A stretch of 64,000 nucleotides of DNA, from the NCBI RefSeq assembly GCF_020103725.1, contig NZ_JAHXBG010000015.1, positions 186,001 through 250,000 of the forward strand. Reading direction: 5' to 3'. The DNA is from Hyalangium gracile (lineage in GTDB: Bacteria > Myxococcota > Myxococcia > Myxococcales > Myxococcaceae). The notes under the pieces were generated by a model that saw only the letters and a list, made by a program, of their open reading frames with translations, did no database searches and was not told the origin of the DNA. The translations under genes and the position numbers were made by a program. Of the stretch, positions 214 to 11,916 are shown one piece after another; the first letter of the stretch is position 1; the number at the start of each line of letters is the position of its first letter.

Positions 214-1161
214 TCACCTCAGGTAGAGACCCAAGGCGAAGAGTAGCCCGAACACGAGCTGAAGGCGCGCCGTTCCCCCGAGCGCCGCGTTCAGCGCCGC
301 CCCCTCGGCCCTCAGCACGAGTTTCAACGGACCCACCCCCAGCGGAGCACTGAGGAGTGCGAGAAACACCCACGCGCTGGCCAGCCCGAGCCCGAAGAGG
401 ATGAACGGGGTGGCGAACGAGGCGGCCAGCAGCACCAGGTACTCCACCTTCCCCGCCCGGGTGCCCAGGCGCACGATCAGGGTGCGCTTGTTGGCCTTCA
501 CGTCCGTGTGCGCGTCGCGCAGGTTGTTGACGACGAGCAGCGCCGTGCCCAGCGCGCCCACGGGGATGGCGGCCCACCACGCCGCCGGGCTCACGGTGAG
601 GGCCTGCACGTAATAGGTGCCCGTCACCGCCACGAGCCCGAAGAAGACGAAGACGAACACGTCTCCCAGCCCGTGGTAGGCCAGGGGCACCGGCCCGCCC
701 GTATAGGCATAGCCGCACAGCACCGACGTCAGGCCGATGGCCACGATGGGCCACCCTCCCACCCACACCAGGTAGATGCCCGAGAGGATGGCCAGCCCGA
801 AGCAGGCCATCGCCCCCGCCAGCACCGTGCCCGGGGAGATGAGCCCGCTCTGCGTGACGCGCACGGGCCCCAGGCGCTCGGCGGTGTCCGCGCCCTTCTT
901 GAAGTCGTAGTAGTCGTTGGTGAGGTTGGTGCCGATCTGGATCAGCAGCGCCCCCACGAGCGCCGCGATCGCCGGCAGCCACCGCCCCACCTGCTCGCCG
1001 AAGGCCAGCCCCGTGCCCACCGACACCGGCATCAGCGAGGCCGTCAGCGTCTTGGGGCGGACAGCCATCACCCATGCCTTGAGCGTGGGGCGAGGACGGC
1101 CCTCGGATCCCAGCACGGGGGCGGTCGGGCTCAGGGAGGGCGCGGCGGCGTCGGGCTTCAT
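214..1161 (-). CDS. menA: 1,4-dihydroxy-2-naphthoate polyprenyltransferase
   Basis: Integral membrane UbiA-family prenyltransferase of 315 residues that attaches the polyprenyl chain to DHNA to give demethylmenaquinone. The start at MKPDAAAPSLSP is chosen because it lies just downstream of menH (8-bp gap); the reading frame stays open upstream but there it overlaps menH. After a polar N-terminal stretch the protein shows WVMAVRPKTLTASLMPV, then the first Asp-rich motif NLTNDYYDFKKGAD (prenyl diphosphate and Mg binding) and the second, NNLRDAHTDVKANKRT, typical of MenA. Several hydrophobic helices follow. The product passes to MenG, encoded in the divergent operon. Confidence 0.95.
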   Translation of the reverse strand: MKPDAAAPSLSPTAPVLGSEGRPRPTLKAWVMAVRPKTLTASLMPVSVGTGLAFGEQVGRWLPAIAALVGALLIQIGTNLTNDYYDFKKGADTAERLGPVRVTQSGLISPGTVLAGAMACFGLAILSGIYLVWVGGWPIVAIGLTSVLCGYAYTGGPVPLAYHGLGDVFVFVFFGLVAVTGTYYVQALTVSPAAWWAAIPVGALGTALLVVNNLRDAHTDVKANKRTLIVRLGTRAGKVEYLVLLAASFATPFILFGLGLASAWVFLALLSAPLGVGPLKLVLRAEGAALNAALGGTARLQLVFGLLFALGLYLR

Positions 1162-1169
1162 GGGGTGAC

Positions 1170-2000
1170 TCACAGGTGGACTTCGAAATCGGGCGCTTCG
1201 TACCAGGGGGTCTGCAGGAAGGAGCGCACCTCGCGCGCGTAGTCCTCCGGCGCCTCCAGGTGCGGCGCGTGCCCGCAGTTCGGGAAGGTGTGCCGCCAGA
1301 CCACGGGCAGCTCGGTCGCCATCTTGCGCGCGATGTGCGTGAACTTGTCGTCCAGCCCGCCGGTGAGCAGCAGCGTGGGCAGGCGCTGGCGGTGCAGCTC
1401 CGGCCAGTAGTCTGGCTGGAAGCCGAGCCCCAGGCGCCCCAGCGCGCCCACGAGCCCGTCGGCCGTGCACTGCCTGCGGCGCTCTCTCAGGGCCGAGAGC
1501 CGCTCTGGAGGCAGCCGCTTGAGGCTGTCGAACAGGGGCTGGGACTCCCAGTGCTCCACGAAGGCCTCGACGCCCTTGGAGCGCAGCAGCGTCGCCAGCC
1601 GGCCGTCCGACTCGCGTCGCTCGGCGCGCTCCATGCGGCGGTGCAGGCCCGGCGAGCCGCTCTCCAGGATGACGCGGCCGAAGCGCACCGGCGTGTGGAG
1701 CGCGGCCGCGAGCGCGATGCGCGCCCCCATCGAGTAGCCCAGCACATCCACCGAGGGCACACCGAGCTCCTGCACCAGCTTGACGACCGCCTCCACCGTC
1801 TCGATGAAGCCCTCGCGGCCCTTGCGCTGGGGCAGCGGCGTCTCGCCATGGCCCGGCAGATCCACCGCGATCGCCTTCACCGCGCCGCCCAGCAACGGGC
1901 GCAGGTGATCGAAGGAGGAACGGTTGCCCGTGAAGCCGTGCAGGAGCACGAGAGGCCGAGAGCCCTCTCCCCAGGTGCTGTATGCCAGGGTCACGCCCAT
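1170..2000 (-). CDS. menH: SHCHC synthase MenH (alpha/beta hydrolase)
   Basis: 276 residues, alpha/beta hydrolase fold. MenH removes pyruvate from SEPHCHC to give SHCHC, the step between MenD and MenC. Visible features are the oxyanion segment LLHGFTGNRSSFD, the nucleophile elbow GYSMGAR (Ser in G-x-S-x-G), the acid region GGLDDKF and the catalytic His in NCGHAPHLE. The start overlaps the end of menD by 10 bp, which suggests translational coupling. Other alpha/beta hydrolases share these motifs; the position between menD and menA decides the call. Confidence 0.9.
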   Translation of the reverse strand: MGVTLAYSTWGEGSRPLVLLHGFTGNRSSFDHLRPLLGGAVKAIAVDLPGHGETPLPQRKGREGFIETVEAVVKLVQELGVPSVDVLGYSMGARIALAAALHTPVRFGRVILESGSPGLHRRMERAERRESDGRLATLLRSKGVEAFVEHWESQPLFDSLKRLPPERLSALRERRRQCTADGLVGALGRLGLGFQPDYWPELHRQRLPTLLLTGGLDDKFTHIARKMATELPVVWRHTFPNCGHAPHLEAPEDYAREVRSFLQTPWYEAPDFEVHL

Positions 2001-3748
2001 GGATCTTCTCCCAGCGCGGTCGCGATCCGCGCGAAGAGCTGCCGATGCTGTTCCACGTTGCGGGCCCGGTCAGTCCGAACCTCGATGAGGTGCAGCCCGC
2101 CCTCCAAGCCTACCTTGACCGAGGCGCGAAGTGCCGGCGGCGAGTCGGGACGGTGGAATTCCGCACCATAGAGTGACGCGGCGTGCGAGAGGTCCAGGCC
2201 GTGCGGGGTGCCGAAGAGGGGCTCGAAGTGCTCCGTGGCCTGGGCGATGGGCAGGAAGGAGAAGATGCCGCCCCCGTCGTTGTTCACCACCACCACGGTG
2301 AGCGAGAGCTCATGGCGGCGCGCGGTGAGCAGGCCGCCCACGTCGTGCAGGAAGGCCAGATCGCCCGTGAGCAGCACCGTCGGCCGCCCCGAGGACGCCG
2401 CCACCCCGAGCGCGCTGGACACGATGCCGTCGATGCCGTTGGCCCCGCGGTTGGCCAGGACGCGCAGCGGCATGGCGCTCCCCGGCGCGAAGGCGTCCAC
2501 GTCCCGGATGGGCATGCTGCTGGAGACGAAGAGATTCGCGCCTGAAGGGAGCGCGGCCACCACCTCGCGGGCGATGCGCGGCTCGGTCAGCTCCGGCTGC
2601 TCGGCGAACGCGGCCTCGAGGGCGTTGCGGGCCTGCCGCTCGGCGTGGAGGAAGATCTGGGCCCAGCGCCCCATGCCGCGAGACACCCCGCGCGAGAGCG
2701 CCTCGCACGCGGCCACGGCCGAGCCCTCGATGACCTGCGAGGCCCGGTGGGCCGGATCGAAGAGCGAGCCGTCGTCGCTGAAGAGGACGATGTGCGCTCC
2801 GGTGGCATCGAGCCACTGCTGCGGCCCCTTGGGCGTCAGCCCGCCACCGAAGCGCAGCACCAGGTCCGGCTTGTGCGTCTGGGCGAAGGGGACGTGCCGG
2901 AGGATCGCGTCATACATGGAGAGCGTCGCGGCGCCTCCTCCATAGCGGGCCTGCGAGGCCGCCTCGGCGATGACCGGATACCCCGTGGCATGCGAGAGCG
3001 CGGTGATGGCCTCGGCGAAGCCGTCCTCCTCGTCGCGAGGGCCACAGACGATGAGCCCCCGCTCCACGTCGGCGATGCGGCGGCGCACCTCATCGATGGC
3101 ATGCGGCGCCGGCTGGCGAGCGGACGGAGCGATGGCGGTCAGCGGCGCCCCGGCACGCCCCTCCTTCGAGAGCACGGACAGGCGCTCCTCGCCGAAGGAC
3201 TCCGGCAGCGGAGCCAGCGGCTCCCGGAAGGGGACATTCAGGTGCACGGCCCCGCGAGGCGCCCGAAGCGCCGCCCCCACGGCCCGAGCCGCGGTGGCGC
3301 GCAGGTGCAGCAGGGCCACGTCGCTCGCCTCGGGCAGGCCCACGTCCGCGAAGAGGCGGGAGAAGTCACCGAACAGGCGCCCCTGGGGAATCGTCTGCGG
3401 CGCGCCCCACCCCTGCAGCTCCAGCGGCCGGTCCGCGGTGAGGACGATGAGCGGCACGTTGGACATCGCCGCCTCGATCACCGCCGGATAGAAGTGCGCT
3501 CCGGCCGTGCCGCTGGTGGCCACCAGCACCGCCGGCGCGCGCGAGTGCTTGCCCACGCCCAGCGCGAAGAAGCCGGCGCTGCGCTCGTCGATGATGGACC
3601 AGGTCTTCAGCCCTTCCACCCGCTGGCACGCCACCGCCAGCGGCGAGGAGCGCGAGCCCGGACACACCACGGCGTGACGTACGCCGCCGCGCACCAGTTC
3701 CTCCAGCAGGGCCCGAGCCCAGAGCTGGTTAAGGTTCGCGTCGGACAT
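1991..3748 (-). CDS. menD: SEPHCHC synthase MenD
   Basis: 585-residue thiamine-diphosphate enzyme that couples 2-oxoglutarate to isochorismate, the first committed step of classical menaquinone synthesis. The N-terminus [20 protein letters not shown] and CPGSRSSPLAVAC are the MenD pyrimidine-binding domain signature. Near residues 455-490 the ThDP/Mg region reads LLTGDLAFLHDVGG followed by VVVNNDGGGIFSFLP. The length fits the family. It overlaps menF by 20 bp upstream and menH by 10 bp downstream. Confidence 0.96.
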   Translation of the reverse strand: MSDANLNQLWARALLEELVRGGVRHAVVCPGSRSSPLAVACQRVEGLKTWSIIDERSAGFFALGVGKHSRAPAVLVATSGTAGAHFYPAVIEAAMSNVPLIVLTADRPLELQGWGAPQTIPQGRLFGDFSRLFADVGLPEASDVALLHLRATAARAVGAALRAPRGAVHLNVPFREPLAPLPESFGEERLSVLSKEGRAGAPLTAIAPSARQPAPHAIDEVRRRIADVERGLIVCGPRDEEDGFAEAITALSHATGYPVIAEAASQARYGGGAATLSMYDAILRHVPFAQTHKPDLVLRFGGGLTPKGPQQWLDATGAHIVLFSDDGSLFDPAHRASQVIEGSAVAACEALSRGVSRGMGRWAQIFLHAERQARNALEAAFAEQPELTEPRIAREVVAALPSGANLFVSSSMPIRDVDAFAPGSAMPLRVLANRGANGIDGIVSSALGVAASSGRPTVLLTGDLAFLHDVGGLLTARRHELSLTVVVVNNDGGGIFSFLPIAQATEHFEPLFGTPHGLDLSHAASLYGAEFHRPDSPPALRASVKVGLEGGLHLIEVRTDRARNVEQHRQLFARIATALGEDPWA

Positions 3749-5045
3749 CTCCGCCTCCGAGAGCCCGGAGCATCGCCAAGCTCTTCATCTCCGTCTCACG
3801 CCACTCGGCCGCCGCGCTGGAGCCCTGGACGATTCCCGCGCCCACGAAGAGCCGCGCATGCGCGCCTCGCACCAGCGCCGAGCGCAGCGCCACCGCGAAG
3901 TGCGCTCCGGACGGCCCGATCCATCCCACCGGCCCCGCGTACCAGCCCCGATCCAGCGCCTCGTGCTCGTGCAGGAAGCCCAGGGAGTGGTCCCTCGGGA
4001 CACCGCCCACCGCGGGCGTGGGGTGCAGCGCCGCCACCACCTGTGCCGGGCTCACGCCCTCGTGCAGCTCCGCGCGGATGCCCGTGCGCAGGTGAACGAC
4101 ATTCTTCAGCGTCAGCAGCGCGGGCTCGGCATCCGCCGTCGTTCGCTCGGCGATGGGCCGCAGCGCCGAGAGGATGAAGCGCACCACCGAGTCGTGCTCG
4201 CGGCGATCCTTGTCGCTCCCGCCCAGCCCCTCGGCCTGCCCGGGTGCCGCGGAGCCCGCCAGCGCCTCCGTCTCCAGCACCCGCCCCTGGACGCGGCAGA
4301 GCGTCTCCGGCGTGGCGCCCAGGAAGGCCACGCCTCCCGGCGCTCTAAAGAGGAAGGTGACGCAGCGCGGGTTCTGCTCGCGCAGGCGGGCCAGCACATC
4401 CACCAGCTCGAACGGGCGAGGCCCCTCGGCCTCCACGGCCCGCGCCATCACCACCTTCTGCAGCCGCCCGGCGGAGATGGCCTCCAGCGCCCGATCCACT
4501 CGCGTCTCGAAGTCCCGGCGAGACGAGGAGAGCTTGAGCGAGACGGCCCCCCCCCGCGGATGGCGGTACTCGCTCGGGAAGTTCGCGCCCACCCGCTCCA
4601 GCCGGGAGCGCACCAGATCCTCGCCCCCCGCCTCCTCCGGAGCGAAGGCGGCCACCACCACACCCTTGTCGACACGCCAGGCCAGCAGCTCCGGCAGCGT
4701 CCAGCGGCCAAAGCCGTGCGCCTGCCAGTCCGCATCCGAAGGAGCCGTCGAGGCGAAGCGCATGCCTCCGAACCACGGCCCGGGCAGCCATTCGGGGGCC
4801 TCGCCCAGCCAGCGCAGCTCCACCTGCGAGGCGAGCGTGCCGAGCACCTCCGCCGCCTCGGCGGCGCTGTGGGCCTCCATCACCGCGGCCTCGCCCCAGC
4901 CCGCGATGGCCTCCTGCGCCAGCGGCCGCTCCCAGTACAGGGACGGCACACCCAGGAGGTTCGCTCCCGCAAGCGGATCCGCCGAGGCCAGCAACATCAT
5001 CCTGGCCACCCAGCGCTGCCCCTTAGCGGGATTGAGCGTCGTCAT
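3729..5045 (-). CDS. menF: isochorismate synthase
   Basis: About 438 residues of the chorismate-binding enzyme family (MenF/EntC/TrpE fold). It isomerises chorismate to isochorismate, which MenD uses. The C-terminal chorismate-binding half shows FLGATPETL, then [19 protein letters not shown] and a C-terminal [10 protein letters not shown], all typical of isochorismate synthases. The ATG at 5045 is preferred over one two codons upstream because GAGAG then has normal spacing; either is possible. It is the first gene of the leftward men operon and faces the aro operon across 113 bp. Confidence 0.92.
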
Positions 5046-5121
5046 CAGCATCTCTCATCGGGGGTGGTGCACCCATCACCCCAGGTTGTCTTCTACGCGA
5101 TTCCGGATATACATGCACACG

Positions 5122-5143
5122 GAGTTCAAAACCATGTGAACTC
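5122..5143. promoter_or_regulatory. perfect inverted repeat between the men and aro operons (candidate operator)
   Basis: GAGTTCA, an 8-bp spacer, then TGAACTC. The arms are exact complements. The element lies in the short gap between the divergent men and aro operons, in the only A/T-rich patch there, and ends 15 bp before the aro start codon. It could be an operator for a dimeric regulator. It does not resemble the TyrR or TrpR boxes of enterics. Function is inferred from position and symmetry only. Confidence 0.4.
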
Positions 5144-5158
5144 GACTGCGGAGGCCAT

Positions 5159-6060
<902 letters not shown>

Positions 6061-6064
<4 letters not shown>

Positions 6065-6750
6065 GCACGGAAGTCCGGCAGATGTTCTCCTCGATCGCGC
6101 CGCGCTACGACGTGACGAACGAGGTGCTGTCCCTCGGCGTCCATCGGGTGTGGCGCCGCGCCGCCGTGCGCTACAGCGGCGCCAAGGAGGGCGACCGCGT
6201 CCTCGACTGCGCCACCGGCACGGGGGATCTCGCGCTGGTGTTCAAGCGGAAGGTCGGCGTGTCCGGCACCGTCGTCGGCACGGACTTCTGCCCGGAGATG
6301 CTGCAGGCCGCGCCCGCGAAGGCCTCACAGGCGGGGCTCGCGGTGGACTTCCAGGTGGCAGATGCGATGGCGCTCCCCTTCGCCGATGCCTCCTTCGACG
6401 TGGCCTCGATCGCCTTCGGCATCCGCAACGTGGATGACCCGGTGAAGTGCCTGAAGGAGATGGGGCGGGTGGTGAAGCCGGGCGGGCGCGTGGTGGTGCT
6501 CGAGTTCGGCCAGCCCTCGGGGCTCTTCGGCGCCCTCTTCCGCTTCTACAGCAGGACGATCATGCCGGCCATCGGCGGCCTGCTCACCGGAAACCGCGCG
6601 GCCTACGAGTACCTGCCTCGCACCGCGGCGGCCTTTCCCTCGGGGGAGCGATTCCTTGCGCTCATGGATCAGGCCGGGGTGTATCGCGAACGTGTAGCCC
6701 ATCCGCTGACGTTTGGGACATCCTACGTCTATGTCGGAACTGTCCGCTGA
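6061..6750 (+). CDS. menG: demethylmenaquinone methyltransferase (MenG/UbiE)
   Basis: 229-residue SAM-dependent C-methyltransferase that makes menaquinone from demethylmenaquinone. UbiE/MenG features are [19 protein letters not shown], the SAM motif [13 protein letters not shown], then [19 protein letters not shown] and [11 protein letters not shown]. Its ATG overlaps the stop of the DAHP synthase gene, and its end overlaps the shikimate kinase start by 20 bp. A menaquinone gene is therefore embedded in the chorismate operon, while the other men genes are divergent. No ubiquinone genes are seen here, so the MenG role is favoured over UbiE. Confidence 0.93.
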
Positions 6751-7330
6751 CGCACGGCGCCACCTCCTCGAACAGCTCATCGACAGTCTGGATCCGCGCC
6801 TCCAGCCGCAGCTGAGGGAGGCGCTCGCCGCGCCGACTCCCGGTGCCCTGCCGGCTCCAGGGCAGACGGTGGTGATCGCCGGCCACCGCGCCGCCGGCAA
6901 GACACGGGTGCTGCCCCTGGTCGGGCGGCTGCTCGGCCGGACCGGGCTGGACCTGGACCGGGAGCTGGAGTCGGCCACCGGCCGCTCGCTGCGCACCTGG
7001 GTCGCCGAGGATCCCCAGGCATTCCGAGCCGCCGAGCGCCAGGCGCTCCTGGCCGTCCCTCCGGGGAGCCTGGTGGCCGTGGGAGGCGGGTTCCTCTCGC
7101 ACCACCCGGAGGCGCTGGCGGGAATGTTCACCCTGGTCGTCCCGGTCTCCTTCGAGACCTACCGGGAGCGCCTGCTGGCGGATACGTCCCGGCCCCGGCT
7201 CCGGCCCGGCGTTACCTTGGAGGAGGAGATCGCCCACGTGTTCCACGAGCGCGAAGCCCTGCACTCCCGCGTCCCGACCGTGCCCCTGGTGGACTTCCTC
7301 CGGGCCCTCTGGCGAGAGGTGACGCCATGA
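6731..7330 (+). CDS. aroK: shikimate kinase with N-terminal extension
   Basis: 199 residues. It phosphorylates shikimate with ATP. The P-loop is GHRAAGKT near residue 52, the shikimate-binding region reads DLDRELE, the FRxxE motif is present as QAFRAAERQAL, and VGGGF is the glycine-rich motif. The first 40 or so residues ([16 protein letters not shown]...) precede the kinase domain and are absent from minimal enzymes of about 170 residues. The ATG at 6731 is within the menG end; a TTG six codons upstream is an alternative. The stop overlaps the ATG of the next gene. Confidence 0.88.
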   Translation: MSELSADARRHLLEQLIDSLDPRLQPQLREALAAPTPGALPAPGQTVVIAGHRAAGKTRVLPLVGRLLGRTGLDLDRELESATGRSLRTWVAEDPQAFRAAERQALLAVPPGSLVAVGGGFLSHHPEALAGMFTLVVPVSFETYRERLLADTSRPRLRPGVTLEEEIAHVFHEREALHSRVPTVPLVDFLRALWREVTP

Positions 7331-8574
7331 ATTCCGCCCGACGCGTCGTCACGCTGCCTCCCACGCTCCAGGGCGCGGAGGCCGTGCGCTTCGCCGAAGA
7401 GGTGCGCCGCCGGGGAGCGAACATCCTGGAGGTGCGGACGGATCTGCACGCGCCCGAGGCCGTGGACGTCGCCGCGCTGGCCCGCGTGCTGCCGCTGCTC
7501 GTGTCCGAGCGAGGCCGTCCCCTCCCCTCCGTCTGGGTGGAGACCTCCACCTATGTGGACCGGGACGTGACGGTCTCCGTGGACGCGCCGGCCACGAAGC
7601 TGGTGGCCTCGCACCACGCCGAGCGCCCGCTCTCCACCGAGGAGGCCCTGAAGCTCTGGGCGCAGGACCTGCCCGCCACGGCCTGGGTGAAGCACGTCGA
7701 GCCGCTCGGGGAGCCCTCGCAAGCAGAGCGGCTCTTCGAGACCCAGGCGCGCCTCATCGAGCGCTTCGGCGCGGGGCGCGTGACGGTGCTCGGCATGGGC
7801 CCTACGGCGCTCCCCTTCCGGGCCGTGCTGGCTCGCAAGAACGCCCTGGACTACGTGGCGGCAGGAGGAAGCTGGAGCGCGGCCCCCGGCCAGCGGCTCC
7901 TGGATGATGCGTTCCGCGAGGCGCGTGCCCCCGGAGGAGCCACGGGCCTGCGCCGGGGCATCCTCGGGACGTCGATCCCCCACTCGCGCTCACCGCGCAT
8001 CCACCGTCAGCCCTTCGACCGCATCGATCTGCCCGAGGACTCGCCCCTCGAGGCGCTCGTCGAGGCGCTGCGCCCCCACTACGCGGGCTTCGCCGTCACC
8101 AGCCCCTTCAAGAAGCGCCTGGCCGAGCACACGAAGTCGCCGCTGGAGGCCATCAACACGCTGGTCCGCCGAGGCAACCGCTGGGAGTCCTTCAACACCG
8201 ACGTCGAGGGCGCGCGCGCCGTCCTCAAGCGGCTCGGGACGCCCCGTGAGGCCTTCGTGCTGGGGGATGGTGGCTCGACCGCCGCGCTCCGTGCTGTCTC
8301 GGACGAGCTGGGCTGCAAGCTGCGCGTCCTCAAGCGGGCGGAGATCGACAAGCCGCTCTCGGGAGTCGGCGTGTGGACCTGGCCGGACCGGATCCCCCCG
8401 CCCGAGGGGCTGCGCTTCGATGGGGCCCGCGTGGCCATCATTGCCTACGGCGCCCCAGGGCGACACATCGCCAAGGAGATCTCGCGCCGAGGGGGCACTC
8501 CGGTCATGCTGGGCGCGGCGTGGTTCATCGCGCAGGCCCGTCGACAGCGCGAACTCTGGGAGACAGCGACATGA
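7327..8574 (+). CDS. bifunctional 3-dehydroquinate dehydratase / shikimate dehydrogenase
   Basis: 415-residue fusion. Residues 1-200 are a type I dehydroquinase: NILEVRTDLH, KLVASHHAE and WVKHVEPL carry the expected Glu/Arg, His and Schiff-base Lys. Residues 205-415 are a shikimate dehydrogenase: GTSIPHSRSPRIH, GFAVTSPFKKRL with the catalytic Lys, ESFNTDVEGA with the Asp, then the nucleotide-binding loop. Two consecutive steps of the pathway are joined, as in plant DHQ-SDH. The usual GxNVTxPxK reads GFAVTSPFK (Asn to Ala) and the dinucleotide loop reads VLGDGGST instead of GAGGAA, so this SDH half is divergent. Its ATG overlaps aroK; its stop overlaps aroC. Confidence 0.88.
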   Translation: MNSARRVVTLPPTLQGAEAVRFAEEVRRRGANILEVRTDLHAPEAVDVAALARVLPLLVSERGRPLPSVWVETSTYVDRDVTVSVDAPATKLVASHHAERPLSTEEALKLWAQDLPATAWVKHVEPLGEPSQAERLFETQARLIERFGAGRVTVLGMGPTALPFRAVLARKNALDYVAAGGSWSAAPGQRLLDDAFREARAPGGATGLRRGILGTSIPHSRSPRIHRQPFDRIDLPEDSPLEALVEALRPHYAGFAVTSPFKKRLAEHTKSPLEAINTLVRRGNRWESFNTDVEGARAVLKRLGTPREAFVLGDGGSTAALRAVSDELGCKLRVLKRAEIDKPLSGVGVWTWPDRIPPPEGLRFDGARVAIIAYGAPGRHIAKEISRRGGTPVMLGAAWFIAQARRQRELWETAT

Positions 8575-9590
8575 ACACTCTGGGAGTCCTCTTCCGTCTC
8601 ACCACCTTCGGCGAGAGCCACGGGCCCGCGCTGGGCTCGATCATCGATGGTTGCCCCGCCGGAGTCCCGCTGACGCGCGAGCAGATCCAGGCCGCGCTGG
8701 ACCGCCGCCGTCCGGGCCAGTCCGCCATCACCACCGCCCGCGCCGAGCCGGACCAGGTGGAGATCCTCTCGGGCGTCTTCGAGAACAAGACGCTGGGCAC
8801 GCCCATCGCGGCCATCGTCCGCAACACGAACCAGCGCTCGGGCGACTACGACAAGCTGAAGACGGAGGACCGGCCCGGCCACGCGGACGCGGTGTGGCGC
8901 GAGCGCTACAAGCACCGCGACCACCGCGGCGGCGGGCGCACGAGCGGCCGTGAAACCCTCTGCCGCGTCATCGGAGGAGCCATCGCCGAGGCGTACCTGG
9001 CGCGGGATCTGCCCCGGGTCCGCACGGTGGGCTGGGTCTCCCAGGTGGGAAACCTCGTGGCGGCGGTGCCCGAGTCCGGCCTCACGCGAGCCCAGGTGGA
9101 CGAGCACGCCACGCGCTGCCCGGACCCGGTGGTGCGTGAGGAGATGTCCCGGCGCATCCTCGCGGCGAAGGAGGCCGGCGACAGCCTGGGAGGCTCCATC
9201 GACATCCGCGTCGAGGGCCTGCCGGTCGGCCTCGGAGAGCCCATCTTCGGCAAGCTCAAGGCGCTCATCGCCCAGGCACTGGGCAGCGTGGGCGCGGTGA
9301 CGGGCGTCGTCTGGGGCCCGCCGGACCTGCTCGCCCGGATCGAGCAGCCCGGGACCGTCTTCCACTCCAAGAAGGAGACGTACGGAGGCATCCAGGGCGG
9401 CCTGGCCAACGGCGAGCCCATGCAGGTGCGCGCATTCTTCAAGCCTCCCGCCACGCTCGCGGACCACGCGAAGGGCGGGCGTCATGATCCGTGCATCATG
9501 CCCCGCGCCGTCCCCGTGCTCGAGGCGATGGTGTCCCTGGTGATCGCCGATCTCGTCCTGCAGATGAACGCCTTCCCCCACACAGCATGA
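8571..9590 (+). CDS. aroC: chorismate synthase
   Basis: 339 residues. It converts EPSP to chorismate with reduced FMN. The start MNTLGVLFRLTTFGESHG is fixed by the ATGA overlap with the preceding gene and by the FGESHG signature at the N-terminus. Other family motifs are DRRRPGQSAITT, RPGHADAVW, GGGRTSGRETLCRV and GGIQGGLANGEPM. Length is slightly below the usual 350-390. The stop overlaps the ATG of aroB. Confidence 0.96.
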   Translation: MNTLGVLFRLTTFGESHGPALGSIIDGCPAGVPLTREQIQAALDRRRPGQSAITTARAEPDQVEILSGVFENKTLGTPIAAIVRNTNQRSGDYDKLKTEDRPGHADAVWRERYKHRDHRGGGRTSGRETLCRVIGGAIAEAYLARDLPRVRTVGWVSQVGNLVAAVPESGLTRAQVDEHATRCPDPVVREEMSRRILAAKEAGDSLGGSIDIRVEGLPVGLGEPIFGKLKALIAQALGSVGAVTGVVWGPPDLLARIEQPGTVFHSKKETYGGIQGGLANGEPMQVRAFFKPPATLADHAKGGRHDPCIMPRAVPVLEAMVSLVIADLVLQMNAFPHTA

Positions 9591-10657
9591 GCTTCCTTCC
9601 ACCCGGCGCGTACAAGCCCGCAACCGATCACTGGGGCTCCTTCCCGAAGCTGTCGCAGCGGCTGCCCGAGGGCAGCGTCGCCGTCGTGGACAAGACGGTG
9701 GCCCGACACCACCCCGGCCTCATCCCGGCGCTCGAGGCGCGCAACCCTCGCGCCATCGTCCAGATCACCGGAGGCGAGCGGGCCAAGAACTTCGCCTCCC
9801 TGGAGAAGGTGCTCTCCGGAGGGCTCACCCTGCCCCGCTCCGGGACGCTGCTGGCCGTGGGCGGTGGCACCATCGGCGACGTCGTCACCGTGGCCGCGCA
9901 CCTGCTCAAGCGCGGGGTGCGGCTGGTGCAGGTGCCCACCACCCTGCTGGCGGCGGTGGACAGCAGCCTGGGCGGCAAGGGCGCGGTGGACCTCATCCTG
10001 CGCGGGCGCGTGGTGAAGAACCCCGCGGGCGTCTTCCACTACGCGGACGAGTCGTGGATCTGCCCGGAGCTGTTCACCTCGCTCTCCGAGGCCCAGCACC
10101 GCGAGGGCGCCATCGAGGCCTGGAAGATGGTGGTCTGCCTCGACGGTCCCCTCTTCCGCCGCTACATGCGCAAGCCGCCCGCGCTGGACAAGCTCGTGAA
10201 GGACGCGCGGCGCCTCAAGGAGAGCGTCTGCGCGCAGGACCCCTATGAGCAGACCGGCCTGCGCCGCGTGCTCAACTTCGGCCACAGCTTCGGCCACGTG
10301 CTGGAGAGCCTGTCCCGCTTCAAGCTGTCCCACGGGGACGCGGTGGGCCTGGGCATGCTCTGCGCGCTGGATGTCGGCCGGGCCATGGGCGTGACGCCCG
10401 AGAAGGTGGCCACCCAGGTCGAGGAGGCCCTGCGCCAGGGCCCCGGCGTGCTCGGTCGAGACCGGATCGCCGCCCTGCTCCGCCGCGCGCCCGTCCAGGA
10501 CGTGGTGGAGCTGCTCGCCGCCGACAAGAAGGCCGGCAGGTCGGGCGAGCTGCGCATGGTGCTCCTCACCGCCATCGGCGCCTTCGAGATCCTGGACGTC
10601 GCCGAGGCCACCTGGCGCAACCTCTGGCCCGCCTGGAAGCAGGGAACCCGCCCATGA
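9587..10657 (+). CDS. aroB: 3-dehydroquinate synthase
   Basis: 356 residues. This NAD- and metal-dependent enzyme closes the DAHP ring to 3-dehydroquinate. The NAD-binding segment reads LLAVGGGTIGDVVTVAAHLL, then VPTTLLAAVDSSLGGKGAVD. Metal ligands are expected in HREGAIEAWK, NFGHSFGHVLE and HGDAVGLGM. The ATG overlaps the aroC stop and the TGA overlaps the aroA ATG, so translation is likely coupled along the operon. Confidence 0.95.
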   Translation: MSFLPPGAYKPATDHWGSFPKLSQRLPEGSVAVVDKTVARHHPGLIPALEARNPRAIVQITGGERAKNFASLEKVLSGGLTLPRSGTLLAVGGGTIGDVVTVAAHLLKRGVRLVQVPTTLLAAVDSSLGGKGAVDLILRGRVVKNPAGVFHYADESWICPELFTSLSEAQHREGAIEAWKMVVCLDGPLFRRYMRKPPALDKLVKDARRLKESVCAQDPYEQTGLRRVLNFGHSFGHVLESLSRFKLSHGDAVGLGMLCALDVGRAMGVTPEKVATQVEEALRQGPGVLGRDRIAALLRRAPVQDVVELLAADKKAGRSGELRMVLLTAIGAFEILDVAEATWRNLWPAWKQGTRP

Positions 10658-11916
10658 GTCAGCTCCACGTCGACCCCTCCCACCTGAAGGCCGCGAGCCT
10701 CATCCCTCCCGTCTCCAAGTCGGACGCCCAGCGCGCCATGGTGCTGGCGCACCTCACGGGCCACTGGCCCCTGGCCGCGCTCCAGTCCGAGGCGGAGACA
10801 GACCTGCCCGCGGACGTCCGCGTCCTCAAGCGAGGCGTGGAGGCCCTGCGCCAGCCCGCCGGCCCCCTGCGGGACGTGGACTGCGCGGACGGAGGCGCCC
10901 CGTTCCGCATCCTCGTCACCCAGTCGGCGGTGACGCCGGGCGTCCACGTGCGCCTCACCGGTACCCCGCGCCTGGGCGAGCGCCCCCACGGCCCGCTCTT
11001 CAAGTCCCTCCGCGAGGCCCTGGGCCCCTCGGGGCTCTCGCTCACCGAGGGCTCCCCCTGGCCCGTGGAGATCCGCGCCCCCACCAAGACAGGTGAGCCC
11101 GTCTTCCGAGTGCCCGGAGACCAGAGCAGCCAGTACGCCTCCAGCCTCCTCCTGGGCTGCGCGGCCCTCTTCCTGCGCGAGCACCGCCCCTGGAGCGTGG
11201 AGATTCAAGGCACGCTGACGAGCGCCGGCTACCTGGAGCTCACCGTCTCGTGGCTGCGGCGCTTCGGCTTCACCGTGGAGGAGAGCGGCTCGCGCTTCAC
11301 GGTGACGGCCCACCAGGCCTCCAAGAGCGCCCCGCCCATGCCGGGAGACTGGTCCTCGCTGGGCTACCTGCTCCTCATCGCCTGGCGTACCGGCGGCAGC
11401 GTGGAGCGGGCCGACCCCTCCAGCGCCCACCCGGACCAGGCCATCCTGCGCCTGGTGCAGCCCGCGGGCCTCACTCCCGTCCCGGGGCCGGACCTGTCCA
11501 TGCGCATGGAGGGGCAGGCGCGCGACGGGCTGGTGGCCTCCGGCAAGGAGTGCCCGGACCTGCTCCCCACCCTGGCCGCGCTCGCCTGCGTGCTGCCGCG
11601 CCCGTCCACCCTGACGGACGTGGGCATCCTCCGCCTCAAGGAGAGTGACCGGCTGGAGGGCATCCGCACCCTGGTGTCCGCCTACGGGGGAACCACCACC
11701 CTGGAGGGTGAGACGCTGACCATCACGCCTCCCAAGGCCCCTCCGGCCCACTTCGCCATGGACAGCCGAGGCGACCACCGGCTCGCCATGGTGTCCGCCA
11801 CCCTCTCCATCCTCTCGGGAGCCCGCCTGACGCTCACCGGACCCGAGTGCGTGGAGAAGAGCTTTCCCGGTTTCTGGAGGCAGGTGGAACGGGTGGGTGT
11901 ACGCCTATCTGAATGA
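10654..11916 (+). CDS. aroA: 3-phosphoshikimate 1-carboxyvinyltransferase (EPSP synthase), divergent
   Basis: 420 residues. It transfers enolpyruvyl from PEP to shikimate 3-phosphate. Conserved parts are IPPVSKSDAQRAM (Lys, Ser, Arg of the substrate site), LTGTPRLGERP, GDQSSQYASSLLL, PDLLPTLAALA, RLKESDRLEGI, DSRGDHRLAM and KSFPGFW. The PEP/glyphosate loop, LGNAGTAMRPL in E. coli, reads CADGGAPFRIL here (residues 77-87): the Gly and Arg are kept, while the positions of E. coli Thr97 and Pro101 are Ala82 and Ile86 by eye alignment. It is the last gene of the aro operon, 83 bp before citrate synthase. Confidence 0.92.
   Translation: MSQLHVDPSHLKAASLIPPVSKSDAQRAMVLAHLTGHWPLAALQSEAETDLPADVRVLKRGVEALRQPAGPLRDVDCADGGAPFRILVTQSAVTPGVHVRLTGTPRLGERPHGPLFKSLREALGPSGLSLTEGSPWPVEIRAPTKTGEPVFRVPGDQSSQYASSLLLGCAALFLREHRPWSVEIQGTLTSAGYLELTVSWLRRFGFTVEESGSRFTVTAHQASKSAPPMPGDWSSLGYLLLIAWRTGGSVERADPSSAHPDQAILRLVQPAGLTPVPGPDLSMRMEGQARDGLVASGKECPDLLPTLAALACVLPRPSTLTDVGILRLKESDRLEGIRTLVSAYGGTTTLEGETLTITPPKAPPAHFAMDSRGDHRLAMVSATLSILSGARLTLTGPECVEKSFPGFWRQVERVGVRLSE

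Follow-up and report, generated by a model that had tools for sequence, protein, structure and literature searches.

What does a perfect inverted repeat do between two operons that both turn on chorismate? In the window, by which we mean the whole 64,000-nucleotide stretch of Hyalangium gracile DNA analysed here, a 107-bp gap runs from the menF start (5051, minus strand) to the GTG start of aroF (5159, plus strand), and inside it we read directly GAGTTCA (5122-5128), AAACCATG and TGAACTC (5137-5143). The initial annotation had suggested that this repeat lies over both promoters and lets one regulator balance chorismate production against its use for menaquinone, the respiratory quinone known as vitamin K2. 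The flanking genes and the elements of the gap are collected in Table 1. Since menG is the second gene of the aro operon, that operon itself carries a menaquinone gene. The gene of dehydratase-dehydrogenase type is taken here to be aroDE, and the further genes of the same operon are, presumably, aroC, aroB and aroA, as their translations indicate.

Table 1. Positions in the window of the men and aro genes and of the predicted elements of the gap between them.
Feature	Position	Strand	Basis
menA (start codon uncertain)	214..1320	-	TIGR00751
menH	1170..2000	-	TIGR03695
menD	1991..3748	-	TIGR00173
menF, isochorismate synthase	3729..5051	-	TIGR00543, above cut-off
aroF-side -35, likely (TTGTCT)	5086..5091	+	conserved in relatives; missed by consensus scan
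men-side -10, candidate (TAGAAG)	5090..5095	-	predicted; kept in G002 and G006
aroF-side -10, likely (TATACA)	5108..5113	+	conserved in relatives; 16 bp after the -35
men-side -35 position (GTGCAT, poor match)	5113..5118	-	weakly predicted; adjoins the operator
operator (predicted), perfect inverted repeat, core TTCA-N8-TGAA	5122..5143	.	sequence and conservation
aroF ribosome-binding site, likely (GGAGG)	5150..5154	+	sequence reading
aroF, DAHP synthase	5159..6064	+	TIGR01361
menG/ubiE, demethylmenaquinone methyltransferase	6061..6750	+	TIGR01934
shikimate kinase-like (aroK)	6713..7330	+	NCBIfam match below cut-off
shikimate dehydrogenase-like, dehydratase-dehydrogenase type	7327..8574	+	NCBIfam match below cut-off
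further aro genes, same operon	8373..11916	+	translations

As a bare shape the repeat is commonplace, and its presence in the gap is by itself weak evidence: the window holds 113 perfect repeats with arms of at least 7 and spacers of 3-12, and about 0.19 are expected per gap of this size. Arms with four or more A/T are found in only 6 of the 113. The sequence itself is rarer. GAGTTCA-N8-TGAACTC has no other match in the window at up to two mismatches (0.08 expected from shuffles) and no other exact match in the whole genome, and the repeat as first described is confirmed; at up to three mismatches the genome contains 125 places for the pattern and 78 for the reversed control. The abundance of perfect 7-bp repeats would accommodate a repeat arisen by chance, a reading refuted by the comparative data, namely the conservation of the gap and the recurrent link to synthase-regulator operons described below, and left with a negligible probability. 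The repeat is significant because relatives conserve it.

The search of 59 genomes yielded 30 distinct aroF-bearing loci, with our own genome counted once. TTCA-N8-TGAA occurs upstream of aroF in 21 of these loci, and in 19 of the 22 from the same family; the genomes are related, and thus these counts of loci and genomes overstate independence. Among relatives the arms of the repeat were conserved and the middle of the spacer drifted, the pattern that the initial annotation had proposed to look for; L010, L024 and L025 were left out of alignment A1. Because the rows were picked by TTCA-N8-TGAA the invariance of the arms is partly circular, and we relied on spacing controls instead: no other spacing from 0 to 20 appears at the aroF loci except 17 (13 loci), 18 (2) and 19 (1). 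At a spacing of 17 the pattern picks up a third half-site, which is degenerate in the window. The conserved block also includes the -35/-10 pair directed toward aroF (TTGTCT, 16 bp, TATACA in the window).

Loss of the arms in relatives that keep the gene order was not found in general, and the exceptions are the three family loci without the repeat upstream of aroF, L007 (G002), L009 (G006) and L032 (G011). In G002 and G006 the menF-aroF pair is located about 5-7 kb from menD and the repeat remained at menD; the aro -10 decayed there, and TTCTAC, the candidate men -10 on the other strand, was kept. The repeat is placed between menD and aroK in G001, G003, G004 and G005, and between menF and menG in G017, G034 and G025. 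Judged from these gene orders, the repeat tracks the meeting point of the men and menG/aro genes and not aroF itself. Two separate observations concern further copies: G020 has a second repeat followed by an apparent copy of the aroF start upstream of menH (L125 3252-3330), which seems to be a duplicated stretch left by a rearrangement, and G027 has one repeat at mraZ.

A second site was found by the stricter pattern GTTCAA-N6-TTGAAC, whose 41 exact matches across the 59 genomes compare with 3 of the reversed pattern; it is present in 22 of 35 family genomes. Some are single matches at other places, including the one match of our own genome (C10:171514, L111). The recurrent second copy precedes a polyprenyl synthetase gene, with PF00348 in the three proteins scanned. 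Scanning our own genome with a sequence model at E <= 1 returned three matches representing two sites, the synthase one being hit on both strands; it lies in the synthase promoter at G000:C15:8685-8708, at an E value of only 0.02. The genome-wide scan for more copies that had been proposed gives one exact copy and a second, weaker one at the synthase, and with this model no wider regulon emerged in our own genome. Directly behind the synthase gene, on the same contig and outside the window, a regulator gene is encoded (G000:C15:7066-7659).

A contig scan with an alignment of this regulator recovered 148 relatives, and the best 80 were taken further. The synthase is directly upstream of the regulator in 78 of these best 80 of 148, the two others being L268 and L272. 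Three loci (L219, L230 and L264) begin inside the synthase, leaving 75 of the best 80 assessable, and in 69 of the 75 the exact repeat is found between -200 and +60 relative to the start of the synthase; the same stretches contain, after filtering, 5 repeats elsewhere in 414,717 bp. Six synthase promoters are without the exact repeat (L203, L249, L252, L261, L263 and L274), and a near-match was seen by eye in L249, L252, L261 and L263. A separate alignment, A4, left out L224, L243 and L250 from the loci initially chosen for it. Distant regulators are found in the f2 and f7 genomes (L177, L186, L187), with variants of the repeat before the synthase. The 37-40% homologues of the five f5 genomes read (L184, L185, L189, L190, L194) are not beside a synthase, and no repeat was detected in the stretches fetched. 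Additionally, a record titled Comamonas sp. KCTC 72670 (BNCN01000013.1, L205) contains a Myxococcus-like synthase-regulator operon with the repeat and a regulator of 78% identity, and is probably mislabelled.

The regulator has 198 residues, and its closest named match, at 91%, is from Hyalangium versicolor. It contains PF12802 MarR_2 (43.9 bits, cut-off 27), and its best match in the PDB is 1ku9 (MJ223), residues 10-147 of which align with residues 30-168 of the regulator at E = 1.7e-11. The predicted structure of the H. versicolor protein, with a mean pLDDT of 77.7, resembles 4nb5, 1ku9 and 5jbr at Z of about 15, followed by other winged-helix proteins; this list is dominated by the winged-helix domain, and a family missing from it carries no weight. 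With its winged-helix domain and its kinship to MJ223, the regulator is a member of the MarR superfamily, in the GbsR/MJ223-like branch. The best NCBIfam match, CudC (NF047500), covers the winged-helix part only, and identity with CudC was rejected at 36.8 bits against an equivalog cut-off of 218.

Across the order, 88 of 145 genomes have an operator-model match at E <= 0.02, and the regulator (E <= 1e-10) is present in 86 of these 88; the two without it, G092 and G115, come in about 1,100 and 820 contigs. Conversely, the operator model has no match at E <= 0.02 in nine genomes whose regulator reaches about 50% identity or more. The repeat is visible on reading in six of them (G002, G006, G138, G139, G042 and G051), and in the other three (G009, G015 and G030) the contigs are cut inside the synthase gene. 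G016, a family member with a 98% complete assembly, is devoid of MenD, regulator and repeat together, and its best synthase homologue is at 36%; its quinone pathway may therefore differ. Strict joint loss is disfavoured by four genomes: G015 and G030 (90% and 87% complete) have the regulator and no MenD match, G088 (1,260 contigs) has a MenD fragment and neither regulator nor repeat, and G011 kept its men and aro genes although TTCA-N8-TGAA is absent and its closest regulator homologue reaches just 36%. In this last genome another inverted repeat, CTTGCAGATATTTTGCAAC, is located before aroF (L032), possibly a changed operator.

Eight genomes were searched for GTTCA-N8-TGAAC. In Myxococcus xanthus AM003 (G149) the exact pattern occurs just twice, at the synthase and in the men/aro gap. 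Lujinxingia vulgaris (G147) and the MAGs G148, G151 and G152 have a site before men genes with no aroF beside it: before menB-menF-menD in L294, L298 and L299, with menB confirmed by NCBIfam, and before menF-menD in L295. The Polyangiaceae MAG G150 has five sites; two were fetched, and of these one lies at the synthase and the other beside none of the genes considered here. In two genomes labelled Planctomycetota the pattern is below control (8 vs 25 and 5 vs 11), so only sites beside these genes count there. Uabimicrobium amorphum has the repeat 161 bp before the synthase, and OFTM357 (Planctomycetota) has a regulator-synthase-aroF-menG cluster in which the regulator is preceded by a one-mismatch repeat, set between TTGACA and TAAACT, and the synthase by another. 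The synthase-regulator site, together with the men sites without aroF in four genomes, points to a regulon of menaquinone biosynthesis, comprising ring, side chain, methylation and chorismate feed. Other repeats were seen in Lujinxingia-like genomes: three copies of GTTCA-N8-TGAAC within about 300 bp between two genes of L. vulgaris (L292 2897-3198, G147:C101:24396-24697), where none of the men, aro or synthase genes was seen, and further repeats before other genes in L291, L293 and L297. A wider regulon in these genomes is possible.

The evidence from neighbourhood and co-occurrence is indirect, and it could be argued that a different regulator uses the repeat as its operator, the GbsR-like gene being no more than a neighbour of the synthase. 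We consider this unlikely: protein and repeat occur together in 86 of 88 genomes, the gene is directly behind the synthase in 78 of the best 80 of 148 relatives, and in OFTM357 the regulator gene is itself preceded by a one-mismatch repeat.

The position of the repeat relative to the promoters bears on how the GbsR-like regulator could act. All promoters were read by eye, and a consensus promoter scan called none. The likely aro-side pair would start the RNA near 5119-5121, so that the operator would cover the first transcribed aro bases. Relative to the candidate men start the operator would span about -39 to -60, and from there it could repress men, activate it or leave it unaffected. Of the earlier statement that the repeat overlaps both promoters, the part about the core of the aro-side promoter stands, and on the men side the repeat is instead just upstream of the likely promoter. 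This asymmetry, and a men -35 position as poor as those of activated promoters may be, would also suit an operator that acts on aro only, or one that acts oppositely, repressing aro and activating men. Against the former, G002 and G006 kept the repeat at menD once menF-aroF had been separated from it, which argues for a role of the operator for men; as for the latter, activation and repression look alike in sequence. Taken together, aro-only or opposed control is a tentative reading with a good deal less than an even chance. Separately, a terminator-like call at 5061-5082, a 9-pair GC-rich hairpin followed by a T-rich stretch, was taken as incidental; its T-run overlaps the aro -35.

An element in the expected 5' leader of aroF could also work as RNA, a hairpin that attenuates transcription or switches the ribosome site, for which the third half-site would be the alternative partner. 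Indeed, the third half-site abuts the ribosome-binding site in some relatives, and the predicted fold of L011 does form the hairpin. The predicted fold of the window leader, however, leaves the hairpin unused, three leaders fold no better than shuffles (z -0.6, -0.4 and -1.3), and 4900-5400 has no Rfam match up to E = 1. The synthase sites also speak against it. Of the 21 aro sites, 17 have the spacer motif A-A/G-A-C, always on one and the same side; the 69 synthase sites have it flipped (36), unflipped (20), in both orientations (1) or not at all (12). A -10-like CTATA directly follows the repeat in 48 of the 69 synthase sites, where the repeat would thus stay untranscribed, and at none of the aro loci; TATA stands 10-16 bp ahead of the repeat at 16 of the 21 aro sites, as against 2 of the 69 synthase sites. 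Both kinds often have the third half-site, a 9-bp step away (47 of 69 synthase and 13 of 21 aro sites). These features favour one protein that would read the same DNA at varying distance from the promoter over a hairpin in the message, which we regard as very improbable. A leader peptide, considered for the ATG at the -10 element and its short frame in several relatives, was rejected: the frame shifts in the window, and the ATG is missing in L012, L013 and L014 and would precede the RNA start.

We conclude that the repeat is, with high probability on this comparative evidence, the operator of the GbsR/MarR-type regulator, which would repress the synthase-regulator and aroF-menG-aro promoters and act on men too. 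A dimer of the winged-helix protein would bind the repeat. Bound over the first transcribed bases, it would block the aroF-menG-aro promoter; bound beside the -10, it would block the synthase-regulator promoter and so limit its own synthesis. Operators so placed suggest that both promoters would be repressed sterically or by a roadblock, as reported for OpcR and GbsR of Bacillus subtilis (PMC7396694). On the men side, with the operator just upstream, it would most likely adjust the promoter. A signal molecule would then release the regulator, our best guess being an isoprenoid diphosphate, by analogy with CrtR, or a menaquinone precursor.

The nearest functional model is CrtR of Corynebacterium glutamicum, which the accessible portions of two papers describe as a MarR-type repressor encoded beside crtE that represses that operon and itself (PMC5401885; PMC7432914), with an operator at the promoter and geranylgeranyl diphosphate (GGPP) shown as effector (PMC5401885). 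By analogy with the GGPP release in that partial account, a polyprenyl diphosphate would be a natural candidate signal here. The likeness is one of gene linkage and predicted function: as far as these portions go, both genes are linked to a prenyl diphosphate synthase (here in 78 of the best 80 of 148), whereas crtR is divergent from crtE and not in tandem, and belongs to a carotenoid pathway, a TTAA-containing operator and Actinobacteria. GbsR and OpcR of Bacillus subtilis, in the portion available of another paper, were modelled on MJ223 and have inverted-repeat operators, downstream of the RNA start for GbsR (a roadblock) and over the -35 for OpcR (PMC7396694). They share with the myxobacterial regulator the GbsR type of MarR protein and an inverted-repeat operator, here a predicted one; as described in that portion, they differ in controlling choline/glycine betaine genes through A/T-rich operators of other sequence and spacing, the GbsR half-sites being 4 bp apart, unlike the N8 repeat. 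Among solved structures MJ223 (1ku9, Methanocaldococcus jannaschii) is nearest in sequence and one of the top three in fold; it is archaeal, with no function or operator assigned to it. A full-text literature search, with most subscription journals outside its coverage, turned up neither a description of this regulator or operator nor, in these bacteria, any regulator devoted to menaquinone synthesis.

Of the original idea that one regulator balances chorismate production against menaquinone use, the single regulator fits what the genomes suggest, with two operons and a regulator gene that travels with the repeat; the opposed balance finds no such support, and the common theme appears to be menaquinone supply. 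On a broader reading, to which we give about even odds, Myxococcota and some Planctomycetota would share a regulator dedicated to menaquinone supply, a one-component protein that senses an intermediate of the pathway, either a polyprenyl diphosphate or a naphthoquinone precursor, and sets side chain, men, menG, chorismate feed and its own gene together through one kind of operator. With a named regulator, operator and target genes, the question becomes directly testable in Myxococcus xanthus, and this would offer a handle on how shikimate-pathway flux and isoprenoid chain synthesis are coupled to quinone demand.
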